Positions 11,926 to 49,458 of a stretch of DNA of 64,000 nucleotides are shown one piece after another. The notes below the pieces were generated by a model. It saw only the letters and a program-made list of their open reading frames with translations. It was not told where the DNA came from and ran no database searches. The stretch spans positions 9,746,856-9,810,855 of the forward strand of contig OZ029929.1 of assembly GCA_964023275.1 (NCBI GenBank). Reading direction: 5' to 3'. The first letter of the stretch is position 1, and each line of letters opens with the position of its first letter. Made by a program: the position numbers and the translations under genes. The DNA is from Norana najaformis (lineage: Eukaryota > Annelida > Clitellata > Crassiclitellata > Hormogastridae).

Positions 11926-11928
11926 TGA

Positions 11929-14660: not shown

Positions 14661-14662
14661 AC

Positions 14663-14695
14663 ATATCTTAGTTGCCAAGGTAACACCTCCGATGT
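14663..14695. repeat. start of duplicate B, left of the inserted LINE
   Basis: GTTGCCAAGGTAACA here matches copy A at ~13505. Copy B is split by the LINE and resumes at 17383. Confidence 0.65.
14685..14695. repeat. target-site duplication, left copy
   Basis: ACCTCCGATGT, identical to 17383-17393, flanks the RTE-like LINE. Confidence 0.85.
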
Positions 14696-17918: not shown

Positions 17919-18140
17919 GTAGTTTAACTACTAGTAACAACTAATGTCAAACAAAGTAGTTCAGAACTCCTTTGGAAGGGTTTTAGGGTTTTTGGAAGGG
18001 TTGGCAGGGTTTTTATAGTTTAACGACTAGTTAGAACTACTATTGAAAAACGTATTTCTGAATCTCTTGGCAGAGTTTTTGTAGTTTAACTACTAGTAAC
18101 AACTACTGTTGAAAAAAGTAGTGCAGAACTTCTTGGCTAG
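17919..18140. repeat. minisatellite of ~70-75 bp units
   Basis: Three imperfect units begin with TAGTTTAACTACTAGT or close variants and end near TTCAGAACT or TTCTTGG. Copy C has a shorter version at ~59365-59435. Confidence 0.6.
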
Positions 18141-18610
18141 GGCCATTACTAATATGTCAAAATATGAACACATAAACCTTGCACTCATTTCTCTGCACTG
18201 GTTTCTTGTTCAGCAAAGGATTTCAGTTTATAGAACATTGAGCTCTGGCCAACCACAATATTTAAAAAAGGTCCTCGTTTCTCAGACTTCTCATTATATG
18301 ACTAGCTTACCTTATTGCCTTTCGCTAGTGATACGCAAGACTATAACTGTTTTTAATGAACGGGCGTTTTTGTTTGCTTAACCTAGATTTTAGAGCTGTC
18401 TTCCTATATCTGTTTGTTCTGATCAGTCGCTTGTGTAATTTCGTTCTCAACTTAAGACTTAACTTTTCAAATTGCTTATCCGCAATAGACTGCCTCTCCG
18501 TCTGAGTGGTCTGATTTTCTGGATATTGGCCTAATTGCCGCTTGGTGTCGGAGAACTGTCGGTTGATGCCTTGTGCATCATATACCGGCGCTAGAGAAGT
18601 TAGTACTTAA
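18110..18610 (+). mobile_element. CR1/L2-like LINE 3' fragment
   Basis: The plus-strand words NLALISLHWFLVQQRISVYR, YCLSLVIRKT and NERAFLFA are the C-terminal signature of CR1/L2-type reverse transcriptases. The 3' end GATGCCTTGTGCAT...CCGGCG recurs at 26220-26640 and 59430-59950 and, inverted, at 6490-6990 and 32490-32560. Confidence 0.75.
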
Positions 18611-19183
18611 CAATAACTAACAGTATTATTCGTTTTAGACTTTATCAATATTGGATAAAAGCAGATGACATCGTTTCTTGTAATGCGAACATTAATTTGT
18701 TTTTACCAGTGCATCCTAGATTTTACGAAACTACATTACCTACAACGAGAACGTAACTTCTAGATCTCCTTAATGACCATTTTACCTAATCTACCAAAAA
18801 AGTATCTTATTTCTAATCCTGTACTCAGATACAGGTTATGCGCGAATGTAGGTTACCAAACGACTGTCTGAGCAACTAAATATTCAACTCCTAGTCTGAC
18901 CTTCGTACTCTTTCACTCTGTCTCTGTCTCTATCTCTTTCTCCTTCTTTCTCTCCCTCTCTCCCTCTCTGTTTCTCTTTCTCTAGATTCTGGGCAGAGTT
19001 ACATGGTGATTTCTGTAAGACCACGTGAACACATATGAACACTTCTACATAACACATACATAACACGTTCACAAGTGCGTATGAATAGGGGTAGCATGCA
19101 TTAAATGGAACATAGGCATATATTATATGCCCGAACTTCAATGAGAACAATACAGGAATATAATTATAAGCGATTAAGTAGTC

Positions 19184-19189
19184 TTTATT
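19184..19189 (-). terminator. candidate poly(A) signal for ANK2
   Basis: AATAAA on the minus strand, ~520 bases past the ANK2 stop. It is the best-placed signal seen but is not otherwise supported. Confidence 0.3.
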
Positions 19190-19345
19190 TGCATATGTCA
19201 GCGCACATGCATTACATTGTGTAGAACAATTACATGCATTCAAAATAGTTATAACAAGAGCAAGTATAATAGATGGGCATGCACACCTAAAATATCGATT
19301 CCCAAAACTACTTTTAAGCAGCTTAGATTTAACGGGAGACAGAAT

Positions 19346-19710
19346 TAAAGGTGAAACGGCTTATCATAAAAAGGAAAATCCAAATATCGCCTCATTAGAA
19401 TCAATCGATTGACAAAGACTTCTGAATATCCGTATTTCAACTTTAACATCATTTAGGCTGAAGCATATAAAGAGCGCCTCTCACTTTTTTCCTTTGAAGC
19501 GGAGCCTTACAAATATCTGGCTACAATTAAAATTACTATTCGGTGATCCCTGATTCGACCAACTGCTCATAAATTTTCACCAAGGAGTTGACAGAAACAT
19601 CAAAAAACCCAAGCTAATCAAGAACATCGCTCCAAATGATGAAAAAGAGAAACACGAATCCACATTCGTCACTTTGCTACTGACATCAGATTATGACCTT
19701 AGAATAACAT
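19346..19710. other. ANK2 3' untranslated/flanking region
   Basis: No coding region. This is the ANK2-proximal end of duplicate B, with weak matches to the other copies. Confidence 0.4.
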
Positions 19711-22700
19711 TCACTGCCTGGAACTACGTGAAGACAGCTTACTTATAAATTCTTTCCTATCAAATTTTTCCCACAATGGGTCATGATATGCATTAAGACT
19801 TCCACTGAAATAGTCGTAATTCTTTTGGAGTATAGGTATATCTATTGCAGTGTCATCTGGACATAGGTTCAGATAAATATCGTAGGCCGCAGAGAACTTG
19901 AAGTCTGAAGAAACGTTCAACTCATCCGCATCGCTTTCAGATTCATCTCCATAATCGAGTTGTATCACGCGCTGTCTTAATGAAGGCATAAGGTAACAGG
20001 GGTAAACGTGATGTCGAGAAAACTCCATGAAGCAAAACATGATCCTCTCGACCCAGAAGGCGAGTTCCGTGCGCGAAATGTTGTCTTCATTTCGTGCTTC
20101 ACTTCCATTTCTGGCATTGAGAGCCTCCATGCAAAAGAGAAGACAAGTTTTCAATTGATATGAAGTCTTCTCATGATCGTGAAGTATCATTTTGCAAACT
20201 ATGTAGGCTGCTTTTATTAAAGGCGAACTTTCTTTGATGATTCGACTTTCTACCGTTGCAAATGAAATTCTAGCAAATTTTTCGGAAAAGAGAAATTGAT
20301 GAGTTTCAACCCTTGGGTTGGGGCGACCAAAGCCTGGCCGATCAAAGACCAGTGTACAACCGTCTGTTTTCACAGTAGGACTAATGCCAGCTGGCAGCGA
20401 ATCTCCTGGCCACCAACCAGACACCTGAACGCAAGCAACTACGTCAATTGATATCTCGACAAAGAGCAAGCCACCCTCTCCGTCGACAATGGGATGAAGC
20501 ATTCTTAGTTCCACCCTCCTAAATAGATAAGATGGCCAATGATATTTCTTTTCGTCTTTTTCGTTTACAATCCCTTCGAACAGATCGTCATCTTTCCAGA
20601 AATTAGGGTTGTTTAAGACATCTATGAGAATATCCTGAAATCTAAAATTGACTTCACGAGTCAGCAGACACTGATCTGAGTCAAAGAAGCAGTCAAAGGC
20701 CTCGTCACTGAGACTGTTGGCATCGTCTCTTGACTTCCGTCTCAGTTGAAAGTAGCCTTCAGGACCCAACGGATTTGAAAACACTTCGCACATTTGGCTA
20801 AATTTAGTTAGTTTAAAGTTATAGTCGAAGTCTGCCGAAATGGTAACTTTTGTTTCTTCTTCGGCGCTACCCATTAAAATCGGTTGGCATTCAAATCGCG
20901 AATCCTTTTTCTTTATACTATGAGCCAAACGGTCCGCGAAGTGTTGTAATGGTGCTTTAAGCTGGCTTACGCGTCTGTTAAGGCGAATAAAGTTGTTTTC
21001 AATCCATATCTTCCAAATTGCTTCTTCTGACGATTCTGGAGAGCGAGATGATTGGGAGCAAATATTAATCGTGGCAGCCACTTTTTGCTTTGTCAATTCT
21101 GTCACGTGATTATTGCTAAACATCTTTGGAATGTTACGCGTGCTCATTCTGATTGGCAATTCCACTTCGTTTTCTGCGTGGATTGTTGTCACTAAGTCGT
21201 CTCGTATTTCCTTATGTTGTCTAGGAGTATATCCGTATCTGTCTTTTGTGTTTTCATTAGCTCCACAATTAACGAGGAAATTGTAAAGATCATTATCTAG
21301 TGCATAATGTAAAGGGGTTTTGTCGTAAGTGTCAGCTGCATTTATGCTACAGCCTAATTCTAGTAGCGCCTCTACTACCTCGCGATATTCCTGGATGCAC
21401 GACTCCATAGCATGGTAGTGCAGGGGAGTTCTTCCCTTGTCATCTGTAACAGTAGCTAAACTCCTGAAATTCTCTTTTTTTAAGTCGATTCTTTCATGCT
21501 CCTGTTCTGTTTCGCAAACAGGAGAGATGATGAGTCGATGCAAGGGACTTCGATCTCGTAGGTTTCGAATAGCCGCGCGATTCTCAAGTTCTTTGATAGT
21601 TGCCGAATTCATTCGCCTGTAAGATTTTACTGCCAAATCAAGTGGCGTGTTTCCTGTGAAGTCCATGGCATTTATATTTGTTTCGTCAACGCGTAACAAC
21701 AATTTAACTATTTCTTGTTCACATACAGTAGTTTTCTTTTCGTCTTTATTGAATTGCGTTACAAAATAATCCTTCCATATGCTAATCTGAAGAAAATTGT
21801 TGATGCCATATTTTTTCTTTTGAAGTTCATTGCAGAAGAAATGCAAATCTAACCAGTTCCCAAATGGTTCATAAATAGCTGCATGCAAGGCAGTATGGCC
21901 GTAATAGTCGTGAAGATTCACGGACGCTTCATTGTTCAGCAGCAGCTGCACTACTTTGACATGATGCGCTGCAGCCGCTTTAATCAAAGCAGTTGCTCCA
22001 TGTTGATCTCTTGCGTCCAGATCGAGTTTCTTTCTCGATTTCTGCTGCCAGTCGAGCAAGATTTGAACGGCGTGACAACAGCCATTTTTGGAAGACGTGA
22101 TCAAAGGCGTTTCACCATCATAATTTTTCACGTTGAAGTCTGCGTCTTTCTCCAACAGCAATTTTATTATATCGTTTACAGTTTGAATCTGCAGAACTCC
22201 CTCTCCTGACTTGTTATTAAGGTGACCGTGAAACTTTTTATCGCAGTTATCTAGCAGCATGAGAAGTGGAGTGTTTAATGTCTCGCCCTGACAGTTTACA
22301 TCGAATCTGTCCGACTTCACAAGAACTTCCGCGATTTCTTTAATATTTTTGCAAATCATAGTGTCATAATGAGCGTGACAGAATGAATATGTCAAGGCAT
22401 GAAAGCTGTCTCCTAGATGCTTCTCAGAATATACACATTGTTGTGTTTTGAGCAATATCTCAACAATTTGCGGTTGGGCGTAATGCGTTGCCAGTTCAAG
22501 TGCAGTGTGTCCATCTGAGTCTCTCATTAGCTCCAGAGGCGTGTTTATTTCTACCCAAGTTATTCGAGCAGATACGTATCGACCATTTCGCTTTCTAAAT
22601 TCGTCTGGTTTGATGTTCCTGCTTTCAACCAAGTACCTGACATTCTCTTGAAGCTTGTACCCCTCTTCTTTGAATTTGTCAAAAATCCTGCAACTGTGCT

Positions 22701-23847
22701 TCAAAATAACTTTAACAACCTCTGTATGACCCCTTTCGACGGCAACATGTAATGGTGTCTTTTTATCGTTGAACATTACAAAATCCGATACTTGGCGATG
22801 CAATAACACATCGACGACTTCTGCATGACCATTCTCAGCTGCAAGGTAAAATGGCGTTTTCTTAGATTGTTTCATGACGTCGACGGTAGAATGGTTGTGC
22901 AGTAAAATCACAACACTGGAAGTGTGACCATTTTGGGCGGCTAAATGAAGTGCAGTCATATTATCGTTGTTGCACTCATTAACAGCCGCACCCCAACGTA
23001 ACAAGACCTCTACAATTTCTTTATGGCCGTTTTCAGATGCCAGATGAAGCGGAGTTTGACTGTCTGCGTTTTTCAGGTCAACCCTTGAGATATTACTTAA
23101 TAAAAGATCGACAACATCTTTATGTCCGACTGCAGACGCACAGTGTAAAGGAGTGTTTTTCTTTGCGTCGACTGCATTGACATCAGATTCGGTTGATTGC
23201 ATCAGTAAACTCCTAACAACCTCGACACAACCATGTTCCGCTGCAAGGTGAAGCGGACTAGGATCTTGTTCTTCTTCTTCCTCATTGATATTCTGTAAAC
23301 CTTCCTCCTCCTCGTTCTCCTCGTCCACCTCCTTGTCCTCCGCAGAGTCCCCATCGTCCTCATCTTCGTCGTCCTCCTCGTCCATCGCCTCTTCCTCCTC
23401 CTCCTCATCCTCCTCATAGTGTAAAAGAGTGCTTTTCTTTATGTCCACTGGATTGACATCAGATTCGGCTGATTGCATCAGCAAACTCCTGCCAACCTCG
23501 ACATGACTACTTGGCTGCAATGTGGAGTCCTCTAGGATTTTCTTCTTCTTCTTTACTTCCTCCCCGAATGTCATCTTCCTCTTCCTTTTCACCTTTGTAT
23601 CAGCATTGGTCATTACGTCGCGAATGTCATTTATTTCATTTAGTTCTTTACTACCAGATGTAGTATATGAAAGTTCGCTAGTTTCGGGTCCACTTGATTC
23701 AACACACATAGTTTCAGCATCAGATTTAGTGTACTTTGCATCAGATTCGCGGTGTGTTTCAACAGATGAGCACGCTTTGTCGACATCAGCTGCGCTTTGG
23801 GTTTCTCCAGAAGCAGCATCAGCCTGTATTGTTTGTGATTTGCTCAT
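19711..23847 (-). CDS. ANK2: ankyrin-repeat cGAS-like (Mab-21 family) protein, complete
   Basis: Single-exon frame of 1378 aa. Residues ~1-90 are Ser/Thr/Glu-rich. At ~105-215 a half ankyrin repeat (VGRSLLMQSAESDVN) is followed by a long Glu/Asp tract. A long ankyrin array runs from ~220 to ~870. Residues ~930-1378 form a Mab-21/cGAS-type nucleotidyltransferase: GS at ~993 (MGSAEEETK), the paired acids in SADFDYNF at ~1006, and a third acid in VEISIDVVACV at ~1133, then WWPGDSLP and a helical C lobe. The catalytic triad looks complete, so nucleotide transfer (cyclic dinucleotide synthesis in this family) is plausible. The cGAS-type zinc thumb is not evident. The start is placed at MSKSQT because a splice acceptor at 23909-23911 excludes the upstream ATG at 23928. 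The ligand is unknown; the ankyrins may sense or tether it. Confidence 0.92.
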   Translation of the reverse strand: MSKSQTIQADAASGETQSAADVDKACSSVETHRESDAKYTKSDAETMCVESSGPETSELSYTTSGSKELNEINDIRDVMTNADTKVKRKRKMTFGEEVKKKKKILEDSTLQPSSHVEVGRSLLMQSAESDVNPVDIKKSTLLHYEEDEEEEEEAMDEEDDEDEDDGDSAEDKEVDEENEEEEGLQNINEEEEEQDPSPLHLAAEHGCVEVVRSLLMQSTESDVNAVDAKKNTPLHCASAVGHKDVVDLLLSNISRVDLKNADSQTPLHLASENGHKEIVEVLLRWGAAVNECNNDNMTALHLAAQNGHTSSVVILLHNHSTVDVMKQSKKTPFYLAAENGHAEVVDVLLHRQVSDFVMFNDKKTPLHVAVERGHTEVVKVILKHSCRIFDKFKEEGYKLQENVRYLVESRNIKPDEFRKRNGRYVSARITWVEINTPLELMRDSDGHTALELATHYAQPQIVEILLKTQQCVYSEKHLGDSFHALTYSFCHAHYDTMICKNIKEIAEVLVKSDRFDVNCQGETLNTPLLMLLDNCDKKFHGHLNNKSGEGVLQIQTVNDIIKLLLEKDADFNVKNYDGETPLITSSKNGCCHAVQILLDWQQKSRKKLDLDARDQHGATALIKAAAAHHVKVVQLLLNNEASVNLHDYYGHTALHAAIYEPFGNWLDLHFFCNELQKKKYGINNFLQISIWKDYFVTQFNKDEKKTTVCEQEIVKLLLRVDETNINAMDFTGNTPLDLAVKSYRRMNSATIKELENRAAIRNLRDRSPLHRLIISPVCETEQEHERIDLKKENFRSLATVTDDKGRTPLHYHAMESCIQEYREVVEALLELGCSINAADTYDKTPLHYALDNDLYNFLVNCGANENTKDRYGYTPRQHKEIRDDLVTTIHAENEVELPIRMSTRNIPKMFSNNHVTELTKQKVAATINICSQSSRSPESSEEAIWKIWIENNFIRLNRRVSQLKAPLQHFADRLAHSIKKKDSRFECQPILMGSAEEETKVTISADFDYNFKLTKFSQMCEVFSNPLGPEGYFQLRRKSRDDANSLSDEAFDCFFDSDQCLLTREVNFRFQDILIDVLNNPNFWKDDDLFEGIVNEKDEKKYHWPSYLFRRVELRMLHPIVDGEGGLLFVEISIDVVACVQVSGWWPGDSLPAGISPTVKTDGCTLVFDRPGFGRPNPRVETHQFLFSEKFARISFATVESRIIKESSPLIKAAYIVCKMILHDHEKTSYQLKTCLLFCMEALNARNGSEARNEDNISRTELAFWVERIMFCFMEFSRHHVYPCYLMPSLRQRVIQLDYGDESESDADELNVSSDFKFSAAYDIYLNLCPDDTAIDIPILQKNYDYFSGSLNAYHDPLWEKFDRKEFISKLSSRSSRQ
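23280..23415 (-). repeat. acidic Glu/Asp tract of ANK2
   Basis: GAG/GAT-rich repetitive coding DNA encodes an interrupted Glu/Asp run between two near-identical half ankyrin repeats. Confidence 0.8.
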
Positions 23848-23908
23848 TATTGGGTAATTTAGTGTGTCACTTCGCCAATACAGCGGATGATCACTTGGTT
23901 TTCGTTTG

Positions 23909-23911
23909 CTG
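23909..23911 (-). other. splice acceptor upstream of ANK2 start
   Basis: The minus strand reads CTCTGTTTTTCAG before CAAACG, a good acceptor conserved with ANK1 (2586-2588). It implies a 5' exon upstream and decides the start codon at 23845-23847. Confidence 0.65.
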
Positions 23912-24280
23912 AAAAACAGAGTACACAACTATGATTTAACAGAGAAATGTAAAAAAAACAATTATATACTAAGTTTCGTAATGAATTGAACAGTTAAGCT
24001 GATGTAGAAATCTTTACAATTCATTTTATGGCTCCATCGTTAATTAATAGACCGCAAATTTGCTTTACTGATTGTTACTTCGAATACAATGGTGAACGCC
24101 AACGTATTAAGAACGGACCACTGCTTCACACACTCAATAAGCTGCTTTGGTCTTCGATTTTTTACAAATTGAGAGTTTCATTACTTCAACACAGATTCAG
24201 TTACGGAACAATAATTCATATTCTTTGAAATGGCATCGACCCCACTAAGAAGAAGCAAAAATCAATTGTATTGTAAAGCA
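23912..24280 (-). repeat. upstream block shared by ANK2 and ANK1
   Basis: Counterpart of 2589-2960. It presumably holds the 5' intron and perhaps the promoter; no individual element can be called. Confidence 0.65.
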
Positions 24281-24289
24281 ACCTCTTCT

Positions 24290-24889: not shown

Positions 24890-25243
24890 TTAACCCCGAG
24901 CGTTACTCGGGACAAAAATTCTATGTAAAAAAGGTTAACCCCGAGAGTGACTCGGGGTAATTAGCATTAATATTAGATGGCTCTTAGCCTATCGCAAACG
25001 TTATATTTTTAAAATCTAACGTCGCTTAAGCCAAGATAATATAATTAAGCACAGAAATAAGTGGAAGATATTTTTAGAATTGGGTCACAAACATGAAAAT
25101 CAACCAATCAAACCAGACATTTAAATCACAAATTTTGAATAACCCTAGATGGCGACGCGGCGTGGCTTACCGACGGCGAAATTCGGCGAATGTTTGATGA
25201 ATAATTGGCATCAGATGATGACAATTTCAACTCATCTGTTGAC
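24890..25243 (+). mobile_element. piggyBac element, 5' end and N-terminal coding piece
   Basis: Two successive TTAA-CCCC palindromic ends occur: 24890-24911 (CCCCGAGCGTTACTCGGG) and 24935-24957 (CCCCGAGAGTGACTCGGGG). TTAA is the piggyBac target. About 190 bases on comes an N-terminal reading (MATRRGL, then LTDGEIRRMFDE and an acidic SDDDNF stretch) with the look of a piggyBac transposase N terminus. It stops exactly where the long inverted repeat begins, and the next acidic piece resumes at 36963. No 3' end was found. Confidence 0.7.
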
Positions 25244-26094
25244 GGTACGAGTTCGCATTTACTTACTACTATCAAATTGGATGGTATTGTACCTTGCGAT
25301 AGCACGCGACATGAATATCCGAATGCTCCTATTCCCCCCGTCTTCCACAATCCATCCGCGATTTTCTACGATTTTGTAAAGTTAACACTTTTCTGCACAC
25401 ACATTGACATCCCCCATTTGTAATCCGGGAGTGTTGATCACTAGCCGGAGGTCACCAGGCAACCATAGATGTAATAACACTAGATACAGCATACATCCAG
25501 ATTTCTGTGCTATATATCTAATTTTAGCCAGTGACTTCATGGGTGGCAGAAAGCAGTTTTGTACGGTGGAAAAGCCTGGAAAGAACTGCAAGTTCGTGTT
25601 GAGAATCTTCTTTATAAATAAATTTATATAAATAAATATTTTAACAAGTTAAGCTTAATATTGCAATAAGTGCAGGCTAATGGCTTAAAATGGAGATAAT
25701 AAGGCTTACATATGATTGCAATAAAACTATGCAATTGGAATTGTGAAAATGAATTGAAAGAATCAAGTCTCTACAACAAAATTTATAATAATATATTACA
25801 ATAGTTTTCATAGTATTGTGAATTCTTTATATACCCTGCCATAGTCATGGGCAAGCCTATTGGGGCCCAGAAGATACTATTGCCATGTGAGGCCTTTGTA
25901 TTTAAGGCCCATCAAATGATCATGGGCACGCTTGCAGGGCTATTGTAACAAAAGTGCAAAATTACTGTAGGCCTAAATTTATAATTTAAACTAAAATTAA
26001 TTTTCAACACATCATATATAATAAACTAAGTTTAATGATGCGAATTTGTTTAATTATGAATTTGTGTAGAATTGGCATGCCTTTCCACAAACAG
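25244..26094 (+). repeat. long inverted repeat, left end
   Basis: Pairs with the reverse complement of 36130-36962. Long shared stretches include GTGTTGATCACTAGCCGGAG and CAGTTTTGTACGGTGGAAAA. There is no convincing coding content. Confidence 0.85.
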
Positions 26095-26219
26095 CATCAT
26101 ATGTTAGACATATGTAGCATTATGACAATATCCCCAAATATGCTTCATATTTTCTATACATGATCTGGAAGGACGGTAATATTGTCACATGGGTTTCATA
26201 TTCTTAGCAAAGGATATGT
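26095..26219. other. short unassigned stretch inside the insertion
   Basis: AT-rich; nothing recognised. Confidence 0.3.
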
Positions 26220-26640
26220 TTCAAATTCGGTTTTATAGTTTATTAAACATTAAACTCTAGCCAAACTCTATACCCGTACTTAAAATCAGGCCTCATTTCC
26301 CAGTCTTATTGTTGTTTAACCAGATCATCTGATTGTCTTCCCCTGGTAATACCTAAGACCAGAACTGTTCTTGATGGACGGACTTTTTCCGTTGCTGGAC
26401 CTAGATTTTGGAACTCCCTTCTTGTAGCAGTTTGTTCTGCTCATTCGCTTGTGTCATACATTCTCAAATTGACTTTCCAAATTGCTTATACACTAGAAAC
26501 TGCCTCTCTGTGTTAGTGGACCGATCTTTTGGATTTTTGACCTGATTGCTGCTTGGTTTTGGTGCGCCATCTATTGATGCTTTATGCATTAACTACGGGC
26601 ACGAAAGAAGTTGCTAATTAACCCACTATTCCAATTCTAA
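26220..26640 (+). mobile_element. CR1/L2-like LINE 3' fragment
   Basis: Same family as 18110-18610: the RTVLDGRTFS region, then the 3' end GATGCTTTATGCATTAACTACGGGCACGAAAGAAGTTGCTAATTAAC in diverged form. Dead copy. Confidence 0.7.
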
Positions 26641-26789
26641 GACTCCATTGCTAGACTCTTTTTAGTCTAAGACAGCCGCAACTTCATTTCCCAAACACCC
26701 CAGTATAAGTCTGCATGTTCTAACACAAGCACTAGAAAGGCAAACAATTAAAACAAAGTACTGATCAGTTTAAATTACTATCTCTGGTA

Positions 26790-27130
26790 ATTAGAGCTCG
26801 CATGGGTCTGCCTCCAAAATATCTTTGTGATCATATTCGGCCTCCACACCCTAGTACCTCATCCCGTTAGCTACGTTCTCTTGATCGTCTGAATTTATTT
26901 GTTCCTCGTGTTAAGTCCTCGCTTGCTCAGCAGTGGACTTTTGCTGTTGTTGGCCCATCCGTATGGAATGAGCTTCCGCTATCGTTTCGTGTTAGGGTCA
27001 CTCTTTTTGATAGAGCTCAGTCAGCTCGTTGTTTAAAGACGTTCTTATTTCCTCGGGTTCTCATGCTGGAAGCGCCTCTGAGTAGTTTGTTCTGTAAGAA
27101 GCGCTATATAAGTTATCAAATACAAATACT
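26790..27130 (+). mobile_element. second CR1/L2-like LINE 3' fragment, another family
   Basis: Plus strand: RARMGLPPKYLCDHIRPP, then VVGPSVWNELPLSFRV and LKTFLFPRV, ending in an AAATACAAATACT tail. This is the classic C terminus of a CR1/L2-type protein. Its tail and wording differ from the preceding fragment. Confidence 0.75.
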
Positions 27131-27759
27131 GAAAATAGAAAATCCGGCATACTCTGACCTTTCTTCTTCACTCCCGATTGTTGATTGCTTTTTCTGCTCA
27201 AGCAGTAAGCCTGAAAGTAGAAAATTTAAACTAATTTTAAGCAAAACAACTAAGTATTTTTAGACACTTTGCAATATTAAGGTTTATGAAAAAAATGCGA
27301 TCATCTAACAAAAACTATGATAACAATCATTTGAATCTACTTACATTCTGTTTACATATAACAGTTTACTTCTACATGTGCATGCATAAGCTTATAACGG
27401 TTTAACGGTCATTATCCATTTCAATTTTGTTTCAAATCAATTACACTGGCCAACACATAATTTGTTGCCTCAAATGTTAGAACTGTTTCTGGGTATATTT
27501 GACCTGCTGATTCCAGAAAAGGCACCAGTTTTCTCCCAGCAGGTCTAGTTTTCGAGATATAGAACATTATGCCATATACCAGTCCTTGCCTCTGCTCGCC
27601 CATAAAACATAAGGCTATAGCTATAATTATGTAGTGCTCAATTTATTATGTGATACACTAAATAAACATAATAATACAAATACTTAAAAGAAAATGGTAG
27701 TACCTGAAACTGTACTTATATGATACCAAACAGAACAAGTTTGTTATAAAAATTTCAAG
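27131..27759. other. 3' side of the transposase-like gene, no clear gene
   Basis: A 60-aa minus-strand frame (27421-27603, with ISKTRPAGRKLVPFLESAGQ) is unassigned; a related CGATATCTCAGAAACTAGACCTG word occurs at ~29940. Nothing else is seen. Confidence 0.3.
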
Positions 27760-29462
27760 TCATTCGACACCGAAGAAGCTCCTTTTGTACGATTTCCGAG
27801 TGTGGCATCTGCCGGAACAATCGCGCATAATATTCCAGCAATAGTCTGCCATCATTGTGCATCCCATCTTCCTTGATATCGATTTTCCATTGTTTTGATG
27901 TCTTGGTGAAATCTTTCACCTTGCTCTTCGCTGAAGTCACCAAGATTCTCTGGAAAGCGATCTAAGTGACTGTGGAGATAATGGACTTTAATGCTCATGT
28001 TGCAGCCAAGCTTGTTGAAATGAAGAAGCATATCCTCTACTAGTTGTGCATAATTGTCTGCCTTCTTGTTGCCAAGAAAATTTTTAGTTACAAGCACAAA
28101 GGAAGACCAGGCACAAGATTCGATTTCATTCATTGATGGTATGAAAAGTGGGTCATTCATAAGTTGCCTGATCTGTGGACCATCGAAGATTCCAGCCTTC
28201 AATTTTTCGATTGTAATTCCTGGTAACTTGTGTACTATGTATTCGAAGCATGAACCTTCTTTATTCAAAGCCCTGACAAATTGTTTCATCAGGCCTAGCT
28301 TTATATGTAGTGGTGGCAGTATGATCCTATCTCGTGCCACCAAAGATTCCTTGATTACATTTTGAGCTCCAACCACCATGTCTTTCCTCGAAGGCCAATC
28401 TTTTCTTGTCCAATGTTCATGCTTGGCTCTACTGTCCCAAAGACACAAAAAGCAGGGATACTTTGTGTAGCCACTTTGTTGACCAAGGAGGAAATTTACC
28501 ATCTTCAAGTCTACACAAATTACCCATTGATGTTCTTTGTATTTTATCTTTTCCAGTACTAAAGAGATGGCATTGTACTCTTCTTTCATCCTGGTGGAGT
28601 GACCGGTTGGAATAGAACCAAATTTGTTGCCGTTATTTAAAAGCACACATTTCAGACTACGTTTTGAACTGTCGATAAAAAGACGCCACTCATCTGGGCT
28701 GTAATCCGACAGACCAATTTTCTTCAATAAGTTGCTGATGTCATTACAGAATACTAGGTTGTTGTCTTCGGTAAAAAATGGCAGCAAATCCTTTTCTCTG
28801 TTTCTATAAATTGTAATTTTCGTTCCAGGCTGAAGTGCATTCTTTTCCTTTAGTCTGGACGCAAGCAATTCAGAGGACTCTTTGGAAAGATTTAAGTCCC
28901 TGATCAGATCACTCAACTCTTTTTTGGTCAAAACGTTCACTGTGTGAAGTTGATTGGAAATCACTGTCACTGCCCCCACTTTCTTCACTTTCGTCATCTT
29001 GTCCGATATTGGACATGCAAGTCTCATCGTCTGAGAGCTGAGGTAGTTCGCGAAAAGGTGGAACTGGTACAATATCCGAATGCGGAACAGGTCTCCTGGC
29101 TGAAGTTATATCAGGGTAAGACAACTTGTGACGATTATTTCGATTGATGCCTATGATATTAACCATACAAAAGTAACAGTCGTCCAAGTCGTTTATCTGT
29201 TCCCTCCAAACAATCGGTACACCAAATTTCAGGCAGCTTCTCTTTCCAATTGTCCAGTGGCGCAATTGTTCAATACAAGTTTTGCATACTGTATGAGGAG
29301 CCCATTGCTTATCTTGATCTCCAAGTTTGACACCAAAATAACCTACATATGCTCTTTTTACAAACTCAGAAATCGGTTTCCTGTTTGCTTTAGTGTGTAT
29401 TCCCCACAAATGTAGCAGAATATGTCTGGATGGTTAATGCAGCTCCGTCTGGAAGTAGCCAT
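27760..29462 (-). pseudogene. transposase-like protein of an abundant, unclassified invertebrate family
   Basis: The minus-strand start MATSRRSC is followed by CYICGEY, AYVGYFGVKLGDQDKQWAPH, CYFCMV, RRPVPHSDIVPVPP, EWRLFIDSSKRSLK, HQWVICVDLKMVNFLLGQQ, GYTKYPCFLCLWDSRA, LPPLHIKLGLMKQFVRAL and FSEEQGERFHQDI. I know this wording from high-copy predicted proteins in aphids, cnidarians and other invertebrates. It looks mobile-element-derived, but I cannot place it in a named superfamily. Paired Cys near the N terminus suggest a zinc finger. Coding is spread over three frames with about three frame changes, so this copy is not functional. Its place between the long inverted repeats makes it a candidate remnant of the element's own gene. 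Confidence 0.7.
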
Positions 29463-30429
29463 AACCTTAAGGATGTTTGCATCTGAGGAATTAAATGACT
29501 AACCTAAAAAATAGTAAGAAGATGTAGTTATTTAATGCTCACATTCACAGATTGTTCTTGCGACCAACTCTTAATATGCCCTAAGATGACTGCGGCTGCT
29601 CTAGCTTTCAGGAGGAGGTTTATATAGGCTATAAATGCTGACTTCAGCATAATCTATTTACATAGTTCGAAACCATGAAACGCTGTATAAGCACAAATAA
29701 ATTCTAAATGAGGCCATGAATTTAGTGCTGAGTAAGCTGTAGGCTACGGAATAGTTATTTCGTTGAATCAGCAATATCTCAGCACGCGGCAAGATATGCT
29801 GATTTTACATTATAAGGATGTAGGCATTATATGAATCAGCAAGAATTATAATAATTAGCCATAAATAAAGCTTATTATGACATTTTAGTTTTGCCAAAGA
29901 CATCGTTTAAAGAGTGGACTCGGTTTTCTTTACAAAATCGACGATATCTCAGAAACTAGACCTGATGCACTCAATCCAATGACATTTTCTGAATCAGCGC
30001 CCAAAATTACCCCAAGAACAGGTCTAAAACCGAAGGCAACAAGAAAAAAAATTTTTTCTGTTGGCCAGTGTTATTTTTACTCCAGTATTACCATAAGGGA
30101 AGTAATTTAGTTGAAAAATCATACTTTCATCTTCCTCACTGGAAACTTCTCCAGGTGTTCTCTTTTGTAGGAGATCGTCTGCGTAGGGAAAGAAAAGACT
30201 TCCAATAGAATAGCGACTTAAATATCTTGATTTAAATCTGCATAGTATTTATACAATTTAATGCAATTATGTATCTAAACTGAGGATCAGTTTGAGGAAA
30301 TTTAATCTAAAATATTAGTCAGTCATTCAGACATTTATATGGTGCCTTTTTGATGTAATATGAAGCAGTCAGCAATCTGTGTAGCACCACTTCAAACAAA
30401 CTTTTCAGCAGTAATAGCAAGCACCTTAG
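29463..30429. other. unassigned stretch inside the insertion
   Basis: AT-rich, with no supported gene. The last part may be untranslated leader of the LINE piece that follows. Confidence 0.35.
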
Positions 30430-30700
30430 GAGCCAGACATCAGTATTCCCATGTTCCCATCGTGCTCCCATCAGAACCTGGCTAAGGCTGGGGTAGCTGA
30501 TATCCAGCTAGCAGACGAAGTTCTACAGTGAATCCTGATCGATCACGTGCCACCATTATCAGTGACAGCAGCAGATTCTGACGTGGCAATGCCCTTTGAC
30601 TTTCAAGCAATTGGACCAGCCCTGAGAATTCTTCAACTCAATGTCGAAGGGCTCTCAAAACCCAAAGGTAAAATCATCAGCAAAGATCCTACGAGTTTAC
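30430..30700 (+). mobile_element. LINE 5' fragment (start of endonuclease)
   Basis: ALRILQLNVEGLSKPKGK is the start of the APE-type endonuclease of a non-LTR element, preceded by a plausible short leader. The rest of the element is missing, so this is a 5' remnant, unlike the 3' remnants elsewhere in the window. Confidence 0.6.
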
Positions 30701-31329
30701 TAAGACATGACATTCAGTGTTTTCTAATACGATTGCACCTTACCTTACAAAATAGCAGCACCACTACTCTTTATCATGGTATTGCTATTTCATCCTGATA
30801 AAACATGCACTAATTGTTGAAAAGGTGATCATAGCACTTAGTACCGTGATTTGGAATTAGCTATTGATTCTCCTGCTGCTGAGAGAACACCTGTTTTACA
30901 TTTGTTTCCACCATTAACGCGTGTTACATGAGAAGCGTTGGAAATAATAAACTCGTGCAATCTTTGGCACAAATAAATATTATTAAGACAGCAATTTAAT
31001 ACACTTAAAACATTTACACTAATTAAAAACTAATGAGTACTTTAAAAAATCTTCTTTTAAATTCTACAGAACATAATGAAAAACATAGACCGGCAATAAT
31101 ATTCAGAAAAAAATAAATTGCATTGATTAACATTAATTACAAATGTTTTATATTCACAGCACAATAAAATAAAAATACTTATGTGTATAAAGGAATAAAA
31201 TAAATGCAAACAACTCGTTCTGAAAGTTTGTATGGCTTTTGCAATAAAATGATTGTATCAACATCACTGTGTCAGTGTACTCATTTTAGAGTCAAATTCA
31301 CTAGATGGCGCTAATGGAACGGAAATCTT
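30701..31329. other. AT-rich intergenic
   Basis: Nothing recognised. Confidence 0.35.
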
Positions 31330-31445
31330 GAATTATCACTTTGCCTGGCTGGGACTTGAACCCCGACCTGTGAGTTGAGAAAAACAAGGAAATGTTTTCT
31401 CACATTGCATCCGTGCACGAAGTCTTGAAATGTCTTCATCAAACT
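31330..31445 (-). mobile_element. tRNA-derived SINE-like fragment
   Basis: The minus strand contains GGTCGGGGTTCAAGTCCCAG, a good tRNA B box. The A-box side and 3' tail are not clear, so a SINE remnant is more likely than a tRNA gene. Confidence 0.4.
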
Positions 31446-31802
31446 TGTTACGGCTTGCTTCACCTTAATAGTTATAACAAAACATAAATTCAAGTTAGCT
31501 ATTAAAATATTCAAATAGAAGTGCGACACTCATTTAAAATGAAAATGAAAATCCATTAAAGTTGTTTACTCATTAAATACACATCAAAGATATAAACTTA
31601 TTTAAAATACAATATTCAACGTTGTTCATTTTTAATACAATAGTTAACGATGTTCGCTTATTAAAAAAAATACAGGTCAGAAATGGATATTTAATTACAA
31701 CCTTGATGTAAAAAGAGTTTTTAGAGGAACGTAATGTATCAATTTGCAATGCTTGGTGAAAAATGAGATTATTACTCCTAATGGCACTAGATATTAAATA
31801 AT
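31446..31802. other. 3' flank of the double-CARD gene
   Basis: AT-rich and presumably untranslated; no distinct poly(A) signal could be chosen among several A/T runs. Confidence 0.3.
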
Positions 31803-34800
31803 TTAAATTGGTGAAAATTGTGGCATGATCTGAAGGTAATTTTCAGCCATGTTTTCATCTTGAAATGATAGTATCTCAAAGGAGTACAGAAACATGCATA
31901 AACTCTTCAAAACCAAGGATACTTACGCTCAAAACACTTCTTTGCCTTGTTAATTTCAGTTTCCACTACGTAGAGATCTATGACTCTCGTTACCATATCA
32001 GGAAGCAAAGCATTGAAGAGCTTTTCAATCCTATCCTTTAGCTCTTTATTGTTGATCACTTCACACAGGTATGCCAGCTCACCGACAGTTTTGCAATATA
32101 TGTAGAGAACAATGCTTGAGCCTTTCCTGGCTGCTATGATCCTTAACTGCAGTTTTTGCAGCAAAAGATTTCTACGGTTTTCAGGCACATTTTGAAGCAG
32201 GCTTGCTATTTCCCTTTCAATTTGCGATTCTTCCTCACCTGACTGTTCTCCATCTAAATTTGCATGAACCTGTACAATAGCTAAAATAAAAATAACAAAA
32301 TATTCAGCATAAGTTTGGATTTGACAAAAGTTTTGCACAAAATCTTCTCTCCCAGAGAGATATGTTAAAATTTGACTGGTTGTATGATTCTTTAATTTAT
32401 TCACAAAGAACTCGTGACGTCGCTTCACCTAAAAAATATATCCATGGTGCATCAACACGAAGCAAAAGCTGACCGTTTAACCCACTATATGTATTTAGTA
32501 ACTTCTATTGCGCCAGTATCTAATGCACAAGCATCAACCAATGGCACAAATATATATATATGACAGTATGCAATGTATGGTTACTATATTCTTTATCCAA
32601 GTTTTCTACAGTATAGTAATAGTGATTGTAATAGCAGTGGCAATAGCACCTAGAGCGGTCGGTCTCTAGCAAGCGAGTGTCTTGTGAGTGAATGTCTGGT
32701 GTCTTTTGAGTACCTGCTCCTTTCGTGGCTCTGCCGAGGTAGGCATGGCCTGTACTAGCCAACAGTTAAATACTAATACTTTAATAAAAACGTATTTATT
32801 TGATTCTTAAAGGATGTTAAGAATAGCCTCCCTATACTGTTCCACAGCTTTAGAACCCTGTATGATAATCGCAGATATACAAAGAGATTAAGAAGGGATC
32901 TTTGATTTTTGACCCATTTTTAAGACAAACTGAAAACTGATACCGTACTTAACATTAAATGGTTGTATCACATTTCTAAAGCAAATCTAAAAATAACAGA
33001 TTTGCCTACCTCCCTTGCTGTCCAAAATGTCTGCAATATGGTCTTGAATTGATGCGCGAAGACAATCGATTGTTATAATATAGGCGGTCAGACTGCAGCG
33101 TCTTAAGATATTTAGTAGTTCCTCATTCTTTTCATAAGTTGTTGGTTTACTTTCAATAAATTCCTTCTGCCTTTGATTGATGACTTTTTTGGAAAATAGT
33201 AAGGTGAGCAGAGCACAAATTTCAAGAAGATCAATCCAGTTTTCTTGATTATCTTTTAATATCTCAATTTCGTTTTCTGTCAGAGGCCATTCAAGAGCAA
33301 ACTCTGTTCTGTGCTCTAGCATAAACACAAACAAACTCTATTTTATTACCTGACATAAAACACACATGACAACGTAATGCGCGTCATAATATACTATTTG
33401 AAGGAGACCACAATTAATGTTTGAATGAATGAATGATTGAATGATTGAATGAATGAGTGAGTGAACGAATGAAACTCAGTACTATCACATGACAAGTTTT
33501 TAGTTTCCTAAAATGCTGTGTAACCTAAACAAAAGTTTCATTATCTTTGCATAAAATGGGCAAGAAGACATTGTCCAGTAATGCCTGGTAAGTTCTTTGC
33601 ACACAATGGCAATTTGACTCCATCACCAACCAACTTGACAACAATGCTAGAGAGAACGGTTCTTTAAGTTAGCCCTGAGAGGCAGCTATGGGTATGAAGT
33701 TTTAGTGTCTTCATTTTTTCAGCCTCAGCATATGACAGCAGGTGACCAGTCCTCTCCCTCACCGCCTTACAATCTTCCCGTCAACAGTGTACAGTCAGTG
33801 TCCTCATTATAGCTGAGTTGGCTTGGGGGCGTAAGTGTAGCAGAAATTTTGAAACAAATTTCTGCTGTGACAGAAATTTGAACGTTCGACCTCTTGGTTG
33901 AGAGTCCAGTAGACTAAACATCTGACTATCGCAAACCAGAGTTATTGATTATTAAAGACATATTTTCTTATGCACTGCGCCTGTGTCCATAACTTTGTCA
34001 ATTTCCAATTAAAATGAAATGAGTACCTCTGCCAAGTTCCACTATGGGAGATGGAAGACTTAACAAAATCAACACCAATTATTAGGAACTGGGAAAGAAG
34101 AACTGGCAGTTCTAGACAACATCACAGACAAAGGCACGAACTGAGGACACTTGACGAGTAATATTTGAGATGCTTGGGTCTGATCAAAGCCCAATTACAG
34201 AGGTCAGAGATGAGTTATTCCAAAAACTAGTGATTTTAATTAATCTACTGCAGAATCAGCTCTGCAGAATTTCAACTGCTAACAGCTATTTTCAGGTATT
34301 AGAAATCACTATGACAGAAATAGCGAAAGCTGACAGACCTCCATTTCCTCGCACCCAGTTGACCAGATGCATCTGCCGAGTTTCAATTAGTGCTCTGATC
34401 AGATCTTGATGGATATTTTTTTCAAAAATGAGTTCAAGAAGTCTGCTATTCTTTTCAAAGGTCGTTGCTTTACTCTTGACCTCTGCAATTTCAAATGCTG
34501 TTAGACTATAACGCAGCTTGTCTAGAAGTCCAAATTCTGATTCCATTCGTTCTATAAGTAAGTCTCTTTGGTTCTCCATGTTCTCTTTGTCACTTTGTTC
34601 ATCTGAGATAATTGAAAGAGCACAGAGAAGATCACTTCACAAACAGATTAACTCTATGTCCAGTGGCCTTATCTATCGCAGATGCCTGACACAAAACTGA
34701 ATTGTTTTAAATATGATGACTCAATTGAAAGAATCCTGTAAATCCCATTCTATTCACTGGCTATACGTGATTCCATCTAAGTACCAAACCTCTTTCAACA

Positions 34801-35149
34801 AGAACAATGTTCACCTTACCTTACCTTACACCCTATCTGCATTCCATCAAATGCTGAAAAACGTCTTACCCAATGGTGTTAGTGGGTTAGAAATGTTACT
34901 GAAGAGCTCCTTTTATATGGTGCAATGAATGTCTAAGGTACTATAGAAGTTACTAATTAATAATAAAAATGACAAGATTCACATGGTAACGCCAACCTTA
35001 AGTGAATTCACAACAGGTAAATTATCACTGATGGAACAGTATAAACAGAAATTATCTTTCCAACCTGGAGCAGGATAAACTCCCTGAGCTGGTTGAGCAG
35101 CGCCATCTGGGCCAATGCCTAGCATTTCTGGTGCACCTCCTGTTGTCAT
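31803..35149 (-). CDS. double-CARD protein with a C-terminal unknown domain, five exons
   Basis: Exons on the minus strand, in order: 35065-35149, 34339-34602, 33010-33315, 31927-32280, 31803-31858. All introns are GT-AG and phase 1, and together they give 354 aa with no stop. Exon 1 is a Gly/Pro-rich leader (MTTGGAPEMLGIGPDG). Exon 2 encodes CARD 1 (~residues 38-115: LIERMESEFGLLDKLRYSL, TTFEKNSRLLELI). Exon 3 encodes CARD 2 (~118-216: TYEKNEELLNILRRCSLTAY). Exon 4 (~219-336) encodes a mostly helical domain with KGSSIVLYIYCKTVGELAYL that I cannot name. The exon-4 donor is strong (GTAAGTAT); exon 5 follows a 68-base intron and is the least certain part, since reading through exon 4 also ends within five codons. 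CARDs act by homotypic binding in apoptosis or innate immune signalling. The partner is unknown. Confidence 0.75.
32490..32560 (-). repeat. LINE 3' tip in an intron of the CARD gene
   Basis: Inverted copy of the 18110-18610 family end (AGTAACTTCTATTGCGCCAG, GCATCAACCAATGG). Confidence 0.55.
33421..33475. repeat. GAAT-type microsatellite
   Basis: Imperfect TGAATGAATGAT units, within an intron of the CARD gene. Confidence 0.8.
33860..33950 (-). mobile_element. tRNA-derived SINE-like fragment
   Basis: The minus strand reads CTGGACTCTCAACCAAGAGG followed by GTCGAACGTTCAAATT, resembling the anticodon arm and a decayed B box of a tRNA-derived SINE. It lies in an intron of the CARD gene. Confidence 0.35.
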
Positions 35150-36129
35150 CTCTAAACCACAAAACCACTGTTAATCAAGTTAATTCCATTAAATTTTAAT
35201 TACTTTATATAAGTAAGCAAACATTAATTAACATTCTCAATTGTATGGATACATACATGTTGACTTGTACATCTTATTTCAGAGGGTGTGGGGTAATGCC
35301 AAATGCTGACAGATTGAACAAGGAGGGGTCCAAAGTAGATCATTTTGTGGACATCATATATGGATGACCCCTGGTCACTGTTCTATGGGAAGCCAACTGA
35401 ATGATTTCTGGATTGGGGATGTTTGTTCACACTGTGGAGCTTTTCTGTTAGCTCTGGCATAATTTTTTAAGCCCTGTGAAGTTTCAATAACTTATTTATT
35501 GCTACCAACTACAACATGAGTACTTTACGTACTGTCCGTTATAATGGACGTCGGGCACTAGCCCAGTGATAACCATAACTTAGGTTACTGTCACAAAGTC
35601 AATCCTGCATTAATGCAGATGGTTTAAGACCAGGGCATTAACATTAGTATAAACGTTTTAAAAGAAAATAAGTCTCAAGCCTACTTGCTCCAAAAAATTT
35701 GGCACTGCACATGCCACAAGCCCAAATGTTTTCATCAAGTAAACAAACTGGGGACTCTAAACACGGAATGGGAATGGTGGGAAAGAAAGCAAAAGGAAGC
35801 TAGAAAGGTGGTGAAAGTTATTGGTCACCTCGATAAAAGCGACAATTTCACGTGCGTTGTTATTAGCGAAGGACATCTGGGCAGAATTTTAAAACGAATA
35901 TGGCGGCTGATCCTGCGGATACGCAATCGCCATGTTTTCGATATTTGTAAGTTCGTAATCGTAATCATAAACTCGAGATTTCTACAGCACCCAAAGAAAG
36001 TTCGGTTTCCAAGTTGGAAGTATAGCTGCATTAAAATTTACATAACTGGCTGAGAATGCGCAAATTTTTGCTCCCCAATAATATCTTATTCACAGATTAC
36101 GTTTATTGTGTAAAACTTGACCGCATTCC
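35150..36129. other. 5' flank of the double-CARD gene inside the insertion
   Basis: A TTTAG just before the start codon could be an acceptor for a 5' UTR exon. The plus-strand frame at 35685-36053 (122 aa) matches nothing I know and is probably spurious. No promoter is called. Confidence 0.35.
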
Positions 36130-36962
36130 GTTTGTGGTAAGGCATGCCAATTCTACACAAATTCATAATTAAACAAATTTGCATCGTTAAACTTAGTTCA
36201 TTATATATGATGGATTGAAAATTAATTTTAGTATAAATTATAAATTTACAGTAATTTTACAGTTTTGTTACAATAGCCCTGCAAGCATGCCCATGAACAT
36301 TTGATGGGCCCTAAATACAGAGGCCCCACATGGGAATAGTACCATTTTGGCCCCAATGGGCTTGCCGTACCTATGGCAGGGTATATAAAGAATTCACAAC
36401 ACTATGAAAACTATTGTAATATATTATTATAAACTTTGATGCAGAGACTTAATTCTTTCTATACATTTTCATAATTCCAATTGTATAGTTTTAATACAAT
36501 CATATAAGCCTTATTATCTCCATTTTCAGCCATTAGCCTAGACTTATTGCATTATTAAACTTACTTGCTAAAATATTTATTTATATAAATTTCTTTATAA
36601 AAAAGATTCTCAACACAAACTTGCAGTTCATTCATGCTTTTCCACCGTACAAAACTGCTTCCTGCCACTCATGACGTCTCTGGTTAAAATTAGATATATA
36701 GCATAGAAATCTGGATGTATGCTGTATCTAGTGTTATTACGTCTATGGTTGCGTGGTGACCTCCGGCTAGTGATCAACACTCTCGGACTACAAATGACGG
36801 ATGTCAATGTTTGTGCAGAAAAGTGTGATCTTTACAAAATCGTAGAAAATCGCCCGATAGTTTGCGGAAGGCAGGAATAGGCGCATTCGAATAATCATGT
36901 CGGGATCTATCATCAGGTGTAATATCCAATTAGGTAGTGGTAAGTAAATCCAAACTCGTACC
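36130..36962 (-). repeat. long inverted repeat, right end
   Basis: Reverse complement of 25244-26094 with scattered differences; the outer end reads AACTCGTACC. Confidence 0.85.
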
Positions 36963-37330
36963 CATCTGACAATGAAAACCTGTTTGGTGCATCGAGCGCG
37001 GAAGATGAAGTGACTTTGGCTGAAGAATATTCTGACATCGACATTGAGTTTACAGATGGCTTCCGATACATGTTATCGCAGCAACGTGAAATTGGGTCAG
37101 ACGTATCCGATGCTGATGATTCGGGCGAGATAGACTGGACTGAATATGTATCAGATTTTCCATTTTCACTCCTAACTGTTCCATTTACAGGTGTCTGTGG
37201 CAGACCAACCCATGGTGCACCATTTTTTACTTTTTCTCACTGTTTTTACATAACAATTTTTTTATGTGCTAGCTGAACAGACCAATCTGTATGCTGACCA
37301 GGTGAACAGCAGACAGGTAAACCCATGCAT
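36963..37330 (+). mobile_element. piggyBac N-terminal coding piece, right of the insertion
   Basis: Plus strand: an acidic stretch (PSDNENLFGASSAEDE), then EIDWTEYV, VPFTGVCG and, after a frame change, AEQTNLYADQ. These fit the order of piggyBac transposases (the FTG..G region followed by ETN.YA.Q). It is in the same orientation as 24890-25243 and would follow it directly without the insertion. The catalytic core and 3' end are not visible. Confidence 0.65.
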
Positions 37331-47610: not shown

Positions 47611-47730
47611 ACATACAGCCGTGTGTCCATCGACCACCTCGTACAAACGCACCCTCAAGAGCCCTGGATATCCTTTTTATTAGCAACGTAAATATTTCTG
47701 CGATCAGCTTATATTAACTGTTATTAAGAT

Positions 47731-48516
47731 GATATACGGTGCCGCCATGAGGCCCCGTTCGAGTGACTGAGTGTAAAAACGTCACGGGACTCGAGTGCCG
47801 CCCGTTCAGAACCCACAGGCTCGGTTTACTGGGGCTTCAGTCCCCTCCCTCTCCCCCCTCGCCGCCGCCACCGCCGACGCCGAAACGCTAAGTCAGCTGC
47901 ACCCAGTGCCTCTAACTACGGACGAGAAAATGAATCGAAGAGCACCTCGCCCACAAGAGGGTTCGCTGCGGTATGAAGTGATGGCAAATCGAATTGAAAA
48001 AACTGACGGAAGAGGAGGAGGAGGAGGAAGAAGAAGAAGAGGAGAAGCAGCAGGAGGAGAAGGAGAATGAGGAGAAGAATGGAAAAGATGAGGATGCGAA
48101 GGATTGGAAAAGGGTGGAGGAAGTGAAGGATGGAAGAGGATATGGAAGATAAATAGGAGAAAGGAAGAGCAGAAAGAGGGGGAGAAAGAGGAAAAGAAGG
48201 ATTAATTGGATAAATAATGAACCTTTGAAAAATGAGATCTATAAGACCCATTTGAAACTCGTAATTTAATTAGAGTGAAGCAGTTGAAATAGAAAAGTGG
48301 AGGATGAGGAGGAGAACGAAGAAGAGAATTTATCATCCAATGGATTCCCTAGCTTAAGACTATTCTAGTTCTTCTTCTGTTGCCATGTGAGATCAGAGTG
48401 GCAAATTCTACGACAAACCTTACAGTGACAACCATGTGAAGTCCAACCTATGTCCCCTTTTCTGCTCGGTGAAGTCTTTAAATGTCCACATGCCGTCAGA
48501 TCCAAGCAAAAGTTTT
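47731..48516 (+). repeat. tandem duplication, copy 1 (GC-rich plus polypurine)
   Basis: The block starts GATATACGGTGCCGCCATGAGG, passes a GC-rich stretch and a long GGA/GAA polypurine run (~48008-48200), and ends near GCAAAAGTTTT. It is repeated at 48710-49458. No gene is recognised; the GC-rich part could be an old promoter or CpG-rich element. Confidence 0.8.
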
Positions 48517-48709
48517 TTACTGGTCCAGAAAGTTCTTGTAAATAACGCGGGGCCCTTTATTAACTCCGTCGCCGCTGCTTGGGCCGTCGCACACCCACCC
48601 ACATTCCACTGCATTTCTCCCTCGCCGGTAACCCTCCAGTTTATGTCGTTATATGGCTCGACTTTACTAGTTTACCAAGGTGGCGGCGGGGTCACATCAA
48701 AGCGGCGGT

Positions 48710-49458
48710 GATATACGATGCTGCCATGAGGCCCCGTTCGAGTGGCTGAGTGTAAAAAAGCGACACGCGACTCGAGCGCCACCCGTTCAGAACAGCCTGC
48801 CTCGATTTACTGGGGCTTCAGCCCCCTCGCCCCTCGCCGCCGCCTCCGAAACCCTAAGTCAGCTGCACACAGCGCCTCCAACGACGGACAAGAAACTTAA
48901 TCGAAGGGCACCCACCTTCACCAGAGGGCGCTACAGTATGAAGTGATGGAACATCGGATAGCAACAAACGACGGAAGAGGAGGAGGAGGAGAAGAAAGAG
49001 AAGAAGGAGGAGGATTGAAAAGATGTGGATGCGAAGGATGGAAAAAGAGAGGAGGGAACGAAGGATGGAAGAGGATAAAGAAGAGAAAGAGGAGAAAGGA
49101 CGAGCAGAAAGAGGGGGAGAAAGAGGAAGAGAAGGATTAATTGGATAAAGTAATGAACTTATGAAAAATGAGATCTATAAGACCCATTTGAAACTCATAA
49201 TTTAATTAGAATGAAGCAGTTGAAATGGAAAGGCGGAGGATCAGCAGGAGGACGAACAAGAGAATTTATCATCCAGTGGTTTCCCTACATGTATCTTAAG
49301 ACTTTGCTAGTTGTTCTTCCTTCGTCAGGTGAAAACAGAGTGGTAAATTCTACTATAACTTTTATAATGACAACCATGTGAAGTCCAACCTATGTCCCCT
49401 TTTCTGCTCGGTGAAGTCTTTAAATGTCCACATGCCGTCAGATCCAAGCAAAAGTTTT
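48710..49458 (+). repeat. tandem duplication, copy 2
   Basis: It aligns with 47731-48516 end to end at an offset of ~979 bases, with point and small length changes. The ~190 bases between the copies are GC-rich and unassigned. Confidence 0.8.

Follow-up and report, generated by a model that had tools for sequence, protein, structure and literature searches.

Transposons with terminal inverted repeats may enclose sequence that is not their own, and for animals Tan et al. 2021 report 370 such Pack-TIRs across 100 genomes (PMC8277862). In that survey the captured sequence has a median size of 224 bp, and the Pack-TIRs present as single copies are mostly inferred to have been filled in place, without transposition. 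The same source describes Ssk-FB4 of Drosophila, in which terminal repeats of about 700 bp, accompanied by 9-10-bp duplications, enclose nearly the entire Ssk gene. Transposition efficacy, as one review puts it, falls once the cargo exceeds about 6 kb (PMC6431247). Among the matches listed by a literature search, which covered titles, the starts of abstracts and term counts and left most subscription journals outside, no paper described a CARD gene within a terminal-inverted-repeat transposon.

The block considered here (25244-36962, 11.7 kb) lies in a window of 64,000 nucleotides of Norana najaformis DNA, the window being the whole stretch that was analysed. As in Pack-TIRs, terminal inverted repeats flank sequence that is not of transposon origin, in this case a gene for a protein with two CARDs, and the likeness to Ssk-FB4 would lie in a non-autonomous element whose terminal inverted repeats enclose host sequence. 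The block differs from Ssk-FB4 in its arms of about 840 bp, in a presumed capture measured in kilobases with five exons, and in the CARD protein gene that it carries; it also far exceeds the median capture given for animal Pack-TIRs (PMC8277862). We hold with moderate confidence that a non-autonomous element of the Pack-TIR type, carrying a complete host double-CARD gene, was inserted in an old piggyBac-like copy. The boundaries on which this reading depends are the following:

25249-26092 (from 25244 with the junction bases), plus strand: left inverted-repeat arm, from BLASTN self-comparison and alignment
36130-36957 (to 36962 with the junction bases), minus strand: right inverted-repeat arm, from BLASTN self-comparison and alignment
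25245-25248, strandless: GTAC at the left junction, a possible 4-bp target-site duplication
36958-36961, strandless: GTAC at the right junction, a possible 4-bp target-site duplication
24890-25243, plus strand: apparent 5' end of a piggyBac-like element, now decayed, with TTAACCCCGAG..CTCGGG twice, then an N-terminus-like frame with one stop
36962-37300, plus strand: apparent continuation of the piggyBac-like N-terminal frame past the block, with no Pfam match

An earlier note had placed the CARD gene between inverted repeats of about 840 bp, and this arrangement is confirmed. When the window was compared with itself by BLASTN, 25244-26092 and the reversed 36962-36130 were 88.2% identical over 850 columns, while a second, global alignment gave 90.1% identity over 832 aligned bases with 8 indels; the arms differ by 46 transitions and 36 transversions (K2P 0.106). 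They are nearly equal in length, about 840 bp each, and match only one another, no further copy being found in the 64-kb window at E up to 1e-5. Identity is lowest, 80.5%, in the outermost 85 columns and lies between 84.5 and 94.9% in the remaining nine alignment windows, an unusual distribution where recognition of the ends by a transposase is needed. The GTAC present at both junctions is palindromic and could therefore be either a target-site duplication or four additional bases of the inverted repeat. No longer or different direct repeat joins the two junctions among the lengths checked, 2-10 bp, and sequences of 5 to 10 bp differ. Hence there are two ways to draw the limits, either an element of 25249-36957 with GTAC duplicated on insertion or a repeat that takes in the GTAC. 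The terminal repeats are several hundred base pairs long, as in Foldback elements and FB4-like MULEs, but the junctions share 4 bp instead of a 9-10-bp target-site duplication, and for this reason the block is not filed as an FB4-like MULE.

The flanks suggest what was interrupted. To the left of the block there are two TTAACCCCGAGNGTNACTCGGG sites, at 24890 and 24935, where 0.00 were expected from 100 shuffles. The left frame reads LTDGEIRRMFDE, a stop and LASDDDNFNSSVDG, and terminates at the left arm; the right frame, PSDNENLFGASSAEDE..., begins at the right arm and continues outward in the same orientation. We take these sequences to be a piggyBac-like terminus and an acidic N-terminus. 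Since Pfam and PDB searches of the flanks gave no piggyBac match, and since joining the two frames through a single GTAC leaves them one out of register, the piggyBac name is probable and not firm. A search for the right terminus of the element found none, sites of the TTAACCC type being located on the left only, and nothing more of the element was recognised beyond 37300; what survives of its coding part seems to be an N-terminal piece only. Against viral contigs the right flank gave six pattern matches, none of them confirmed. Both flanks nevertheless look like a single broken piggyBac-like element. Of the earlier claim that the arms split a piggyBac element, the interruption stands, in that the piggyBac-like frames stop and resume at the arms, while the identity of the element is qualified by the searches and by the shifted register.

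The same observations bear on a different origin of the arms, namely two independent insertions, a local inversion or a segmental rearrangement beside an ordinary CARD gene, with the piggyBac-like pieces coming from different copies. The locus would suit such events, being repeat-rich and segmentally duplicated, with ankyrin-repeat gene copies at three places that are mostly 81-82% alike, and the ambiguous GTAC duplication and the flank frames, out of register and with no profile match, point in the same direction. But the arm ends coincide with the stop and the resumption of piggyBac-like coding in one orientation, and arms of near-equal length for which the window has no other match (E up to 1e-5) speak against independent events. 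We regard this origin as doubtful, though it carries some weight. In favour of the Pack-TIR-type insertion, each arm adjoins a piggyBac-like piece, the two pieces point the same way, and TTAA-type sites lie to the left of the block; we infer that the gene and the arms form one element and that the flanks belong to one piggyBac-like copy.

Three further features occupy the space between the arms and the CARD gene:

27444-30070, minus strand: nested transposon of 2.6 kb, with inverted termini CACTGGCCAACA, a diverged terminal repeat, TTA flanks and transposase-like sequence
27852-29433, minus strand: transposase-like sequence of the nested transposon, in two overlapping frames, 28909-29433 and 27852-29105
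26206-26620, plus strand: copy of a dispersed repeat, 70-72% identical to 59506-59927, to 18225-18611 and, inverted, to 6891-7227

The limits of the nested transposon were obtained by an inverted-repeat search within the block, which located CACTGGCCAACA at 27444 and an inverted counterpart with its end at 30070. The diverged terminal repeat reaches about 150 bp inward, and the termini align with a score of 43, whereas the best of 1000 shuffles reached 19; without their first 30 bases the score is still 36, the shuffle maximum again being 19. TTA lies on either side and the termini start with CACTG. An insertion of its own, 2.6 kb long, is thus the most likely reading. The transposase-like sequence in it is presumably a frameshifted pseudogene, to judge by its presumed relatives, introns being an alternative. 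All Pfam matches of its frames were below the cut-off, NCBIfam gave none, and the longer frame had none in PDB. Classification as CACTA/CMC was not favoured by Pfam, in which a Transposase_21 match was absent at E up to 1. There were no pattern matches to the transposase-like protein in viral contigs, and seven in prokaryotic genome contigs of which none was confirmed.

The transposase-like sequence was considered as the block's own enzyme and rejected, as it belongs to the separately bounded nested transposon. Outside that transposon no transposase was recognised anywhere in the block, and capture by a non-autonomous inverted-repeat element is therefore the best reading. Apart from the CARD gene and the nested transposon, the interval between the arms has two ORFs of 100 aa or more, 26871-27263 and 35628-36053, and neither has a Pfam match. 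Once the nested transposon is removed the interior amounts to 1351 + 6059 bp, of which the CARD gene is the main part that can be recognised. The earlier suggestion that the gene may be transposon cargo holds insofar as the gene is bounded by inverted repeats; the block 25244-36962 is also host to the nested element, which has to be set apart from that cargo.

The surroundings of the block contain a number of other repeats. An ankyrin-repeat gene is present in three copies on the minus strand, at 1-2955, 19693-24282 and 60678-63998, with DNA identity mostly of 81-82% and some stretches of 75-79%. The second and third copies are accompanied by segments, 11923-19369 and 55764-60682, that resemble each other at about 69-86%, and no copy of the arms lies between the first and second ankyrin copies (BLASTN, E up to 1e-5). 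Pfam Mab-21 matches the C-terminal portion of ORF 19711-23928 just below the cut-off (E 5.3e-4, 20.5 of 24.1 bits); this near match suggests a cluster of ankyrin/cGAS-like receptors around the CARD block. On the minus strand, 14710-17445 is a long open ORF of LINE type whose domains are those of an endonuclease and a reverse transcriptase. The closest of the repeat pairs found in the window is a tandem duplication of 286 bp at 8114-8399 and 8396-8681 (99.65% identity), and a direct pair of neighbouring copies of about 790 bp, at 47730-48516 and 48709-49458, is 81.6% identical. Scans of the window with Rfam, at gathering scores, and for tRNA genes gave no matches.

The CARD gene lies on the minus strand (35149 to 31803), and its modelled exons, in the order of transcription, are:

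35065-35149, minus strand: exon 1 (tentative), from the splice model and codon usage
34339-34602, minus strand: exon 2, first CARD, from Pfam, the splice model and codon usage
33010-33315, minus strand: exon 3, second CARD, from Pfam, PDB, the splice model and codon usage
31927-32280, minus strand: exon 4, a module of about 117 aa, from the splice model and codon usage
31803-31858, minus strand: exon 5 (tentative), with the stop TAA, from the splice model

Splicing of the five exons gives an uninterrupted CDS of 1065 nt, that is 354 codons and a stop, and all four introns are GT-AG and in phase 1; the structure proposed in the earlier note, with its unbroken protein of 354 aa, was thus reproduced, and Pfam recognises two CARDs in it. 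An ATTAAA is located at 31695, about 110 nt downstream of the stop. Judged by eye, the donors of introns 3 and 4 (GTAGGC and GTAAGT) look good and those of introns 1 and 2 (GTTGGA and GTCTGT) look poor. An additional 5' exon is possible, given the acceptor-like TTTAG immediately upstream of the exon 1 ATG. Introns 1, 2 and 3 are 462, 1023 and 729 nt long, every length being divisible by three, probably by chance, and each of the three contains in-frame stops.

Open frames and codon usage support the model unevenly. In 31780-35200 the minus strand has three frames that stay free of stops for at least 110 aa and the plus strand none, while 2000 dinucleotide shuffles of this region gave 0.119 such frames on average and never more than 2. 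Codon-usage log-odds, trained on two ankyrin ORFs of the same window, are 10.4, 4.2 and 12.8 for exons 2, 3 and 4, and these exons are positive solely in the proposed frame, the other five frames each scoring between -21.7 and -57.1; introns 1-3, taken as controls, score from -57.1 to -124.0. Exon 1 is ambiguous, with 2.8 in frame and 4.4 in one antisense frame, and the score of exon 5, -4.7, is uninformative because -4 of the total is its own stop-codon penalty. Support for the gene model is accordingly good for exons 2-4, in their codon usage and open frames, and does not extend to exons 1 and 5 or to the donors of introns 1 and 2.

The age of the arms offers a further measure of intactness. 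Exons and splice dinucleotides were mutated in a simulation of neutral decay with the substitution and indel spectrum of the arms, half of the divergence being assigned to each arm; this assumes that the arms were identical when inserted and that the CARD gene was there from the outset. At the full age of the arms, 24 of 10000 runs left the gene model unbroken, and 450 of 10000 did so when indels were omitted. At half that age 402 of 10000 runs spared it (2111 with substitutions alone), at a quarter 2008 of 10000 (4629) and at a tenth 5258 of 10000 (7370). In 5944 of the 10000 full-age runs the cause of breakage counted first was a lost splice dinucleotide, so that the result depends on the splice model. 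That the gene is still open suggests selection; its intactness beside diverged arms fits selection, a gene that came in later, or arms already unlike at insertion, among which the simulation does not discriminate.

It is conceivable that the CARD gene is dead or mis-modelled, exons 2-4 being remnants of a larger death-fold gene whose 354-aa product is never made, and the poor-looking donors of introns 1 and 2, together with the ambiguous codon usage of exon 1 and the uninformative exon 5, would agree with this. Three successive exons are nevertheless open with positive coding scores, and neutral decay at the divergence of the arms seldom spares the model, which makes a dead gene distinctly unlikely. 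The Pfam domains of the predicted protein also make the gene look coding. In an hmmscan of the spliced protein, Pfam CARD (PF00619) matches two stretches (E 9.3e-13, 48.4 bits), and the single-exon frames score 37.6 bits for exon 3 and 24.4 bits for exon 2 with a cut-off of 23.9. The two CARDs are 35% identical across 57 aligned positions. In PDB the second has weak matches to chains of CED-3 (E 0.007) and CARD8 (E 0.14 and weaker), and no CARD chain was found for the first. Within the 64-kb window the next tblastn matches of the protein, beyond its own exons, have an E of 0.019 or worse.

NOD2 is a tandem-CARD protein. Two consecutive CARDs are common to it and to the protein described here, in which each CARD alone reaches the Pfam cut-off; the latter differs in that Pfam finds neither NACHT nor leucine-rich repeat in the spliced protein, and in an exon 4 module with no family assignment. 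From its two CARDs the protein would be a homotypic death-fold adaptor that recruits CARD partners in immune or apoptotic signalling. Its order of domains, death-like and then another, resembles that described for TRADD-N proteins of marine invertebrates (PMC8195603), and by eye a Gly-Ser pair of exon 4 occupies a TRADD-N-like place. However, PF09034 (TRADD_N) and PF20694 (TRADD-like_N), both in the library searched, gave no match, and the local alignment of exon 4 to human TRADD had a z of 0.52, with 557 of 2000 shuffles equally good; assignment to TRADD-N is not supported. Nor is a beta2-adaptin appendage, the best Pfam match of exon 4, which at 16.1 and 16.3 bits against a cut-off of 22.6 was judged to be due to chance. 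The search of PDB with exon 4 returned six matches at chance level and no relative, and its single-sequence AlphaFold model is poor and all-helical (pLDDT 54.2). Pattern matches in viral contigs were confirmed as relatives in 0 of 10 cases for the second CARD, 0 of 25 for exon 4 and 0 of 43 for the first CARD; for an animal gene, such viral and prokaryotic negatives say little. We consider it very unlikely that the transposon lineage carries the CARD gene as an accessory in every copy, perhaps to blunt host cell death. In favour of this reading, the gene is the main content between the arms after removal of the nested transposon, and viral CARD genes that inhibit apoptosis are described (PMC4457926); against it, the introns and two-CARD make-up of the gene look host-like, and no relative was confirmed in viral contigs.

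The capture by a Pack-TIR-type element could have proceeded as follows. A non-autonomous, foldback-like element with long terminal inverted repeats, at about 25249-36957, would have entered the 5' coding part of a piggyBac-like copy, and template switching or gap repair likely copied a genomic CARD locus between its arms. The CARD copy would have arisen in place, or transposition by an enzyme provided in trans would have followed. The nested transposon and the dispersed repeat would have arrived later, and the gene has stayed open, which suggests selection. The block is thus probably a new case of Pack-TIR-like capture, in which a CARD gene was taken up in unusually complete form. What is new here is that the transposase-like sequence is confined to the nested transposon, the argument from neutral decay, and the animal Pack-TIR as the closest kind, with Ssk-FB4 the nearest precedent that was found.

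Movement of the gene is a separate matter. The earlier note proposed that the gene, if the block moved as a unit, had been spread by mobility, for which we find no support: the GTAC is ambiguous, and single-copy Pack-TIRs are, in the account of Tan et al., mostly filled in place (PMC8277862). A single copy cannot demonstrate movement, and spread of the CARD gene by mobility is unproven. The limit of about 6 kb given for cargo (PMC6431247) disfavours easy movement of an 11.7-kb block, which, if the nested insertion came later, was originally smaller. That there is a whole transposon family with a selected, spliced death-fold adaptor gene as cargo, its copies dealt around the genome and this one near a cluster of ankyrin/Mab-21-like genes, we consider rather unlikely.

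If the capture is as we propose, a complete five-exon gene of immune type, uninterrupted to this day despite a difference of about 10% between its arms, would be a further, much larger case of capture by terminal inverted repeats. Moreover, it would provide a route by which the death-fold repertoires of invertebrates could grow without tandem duplication.
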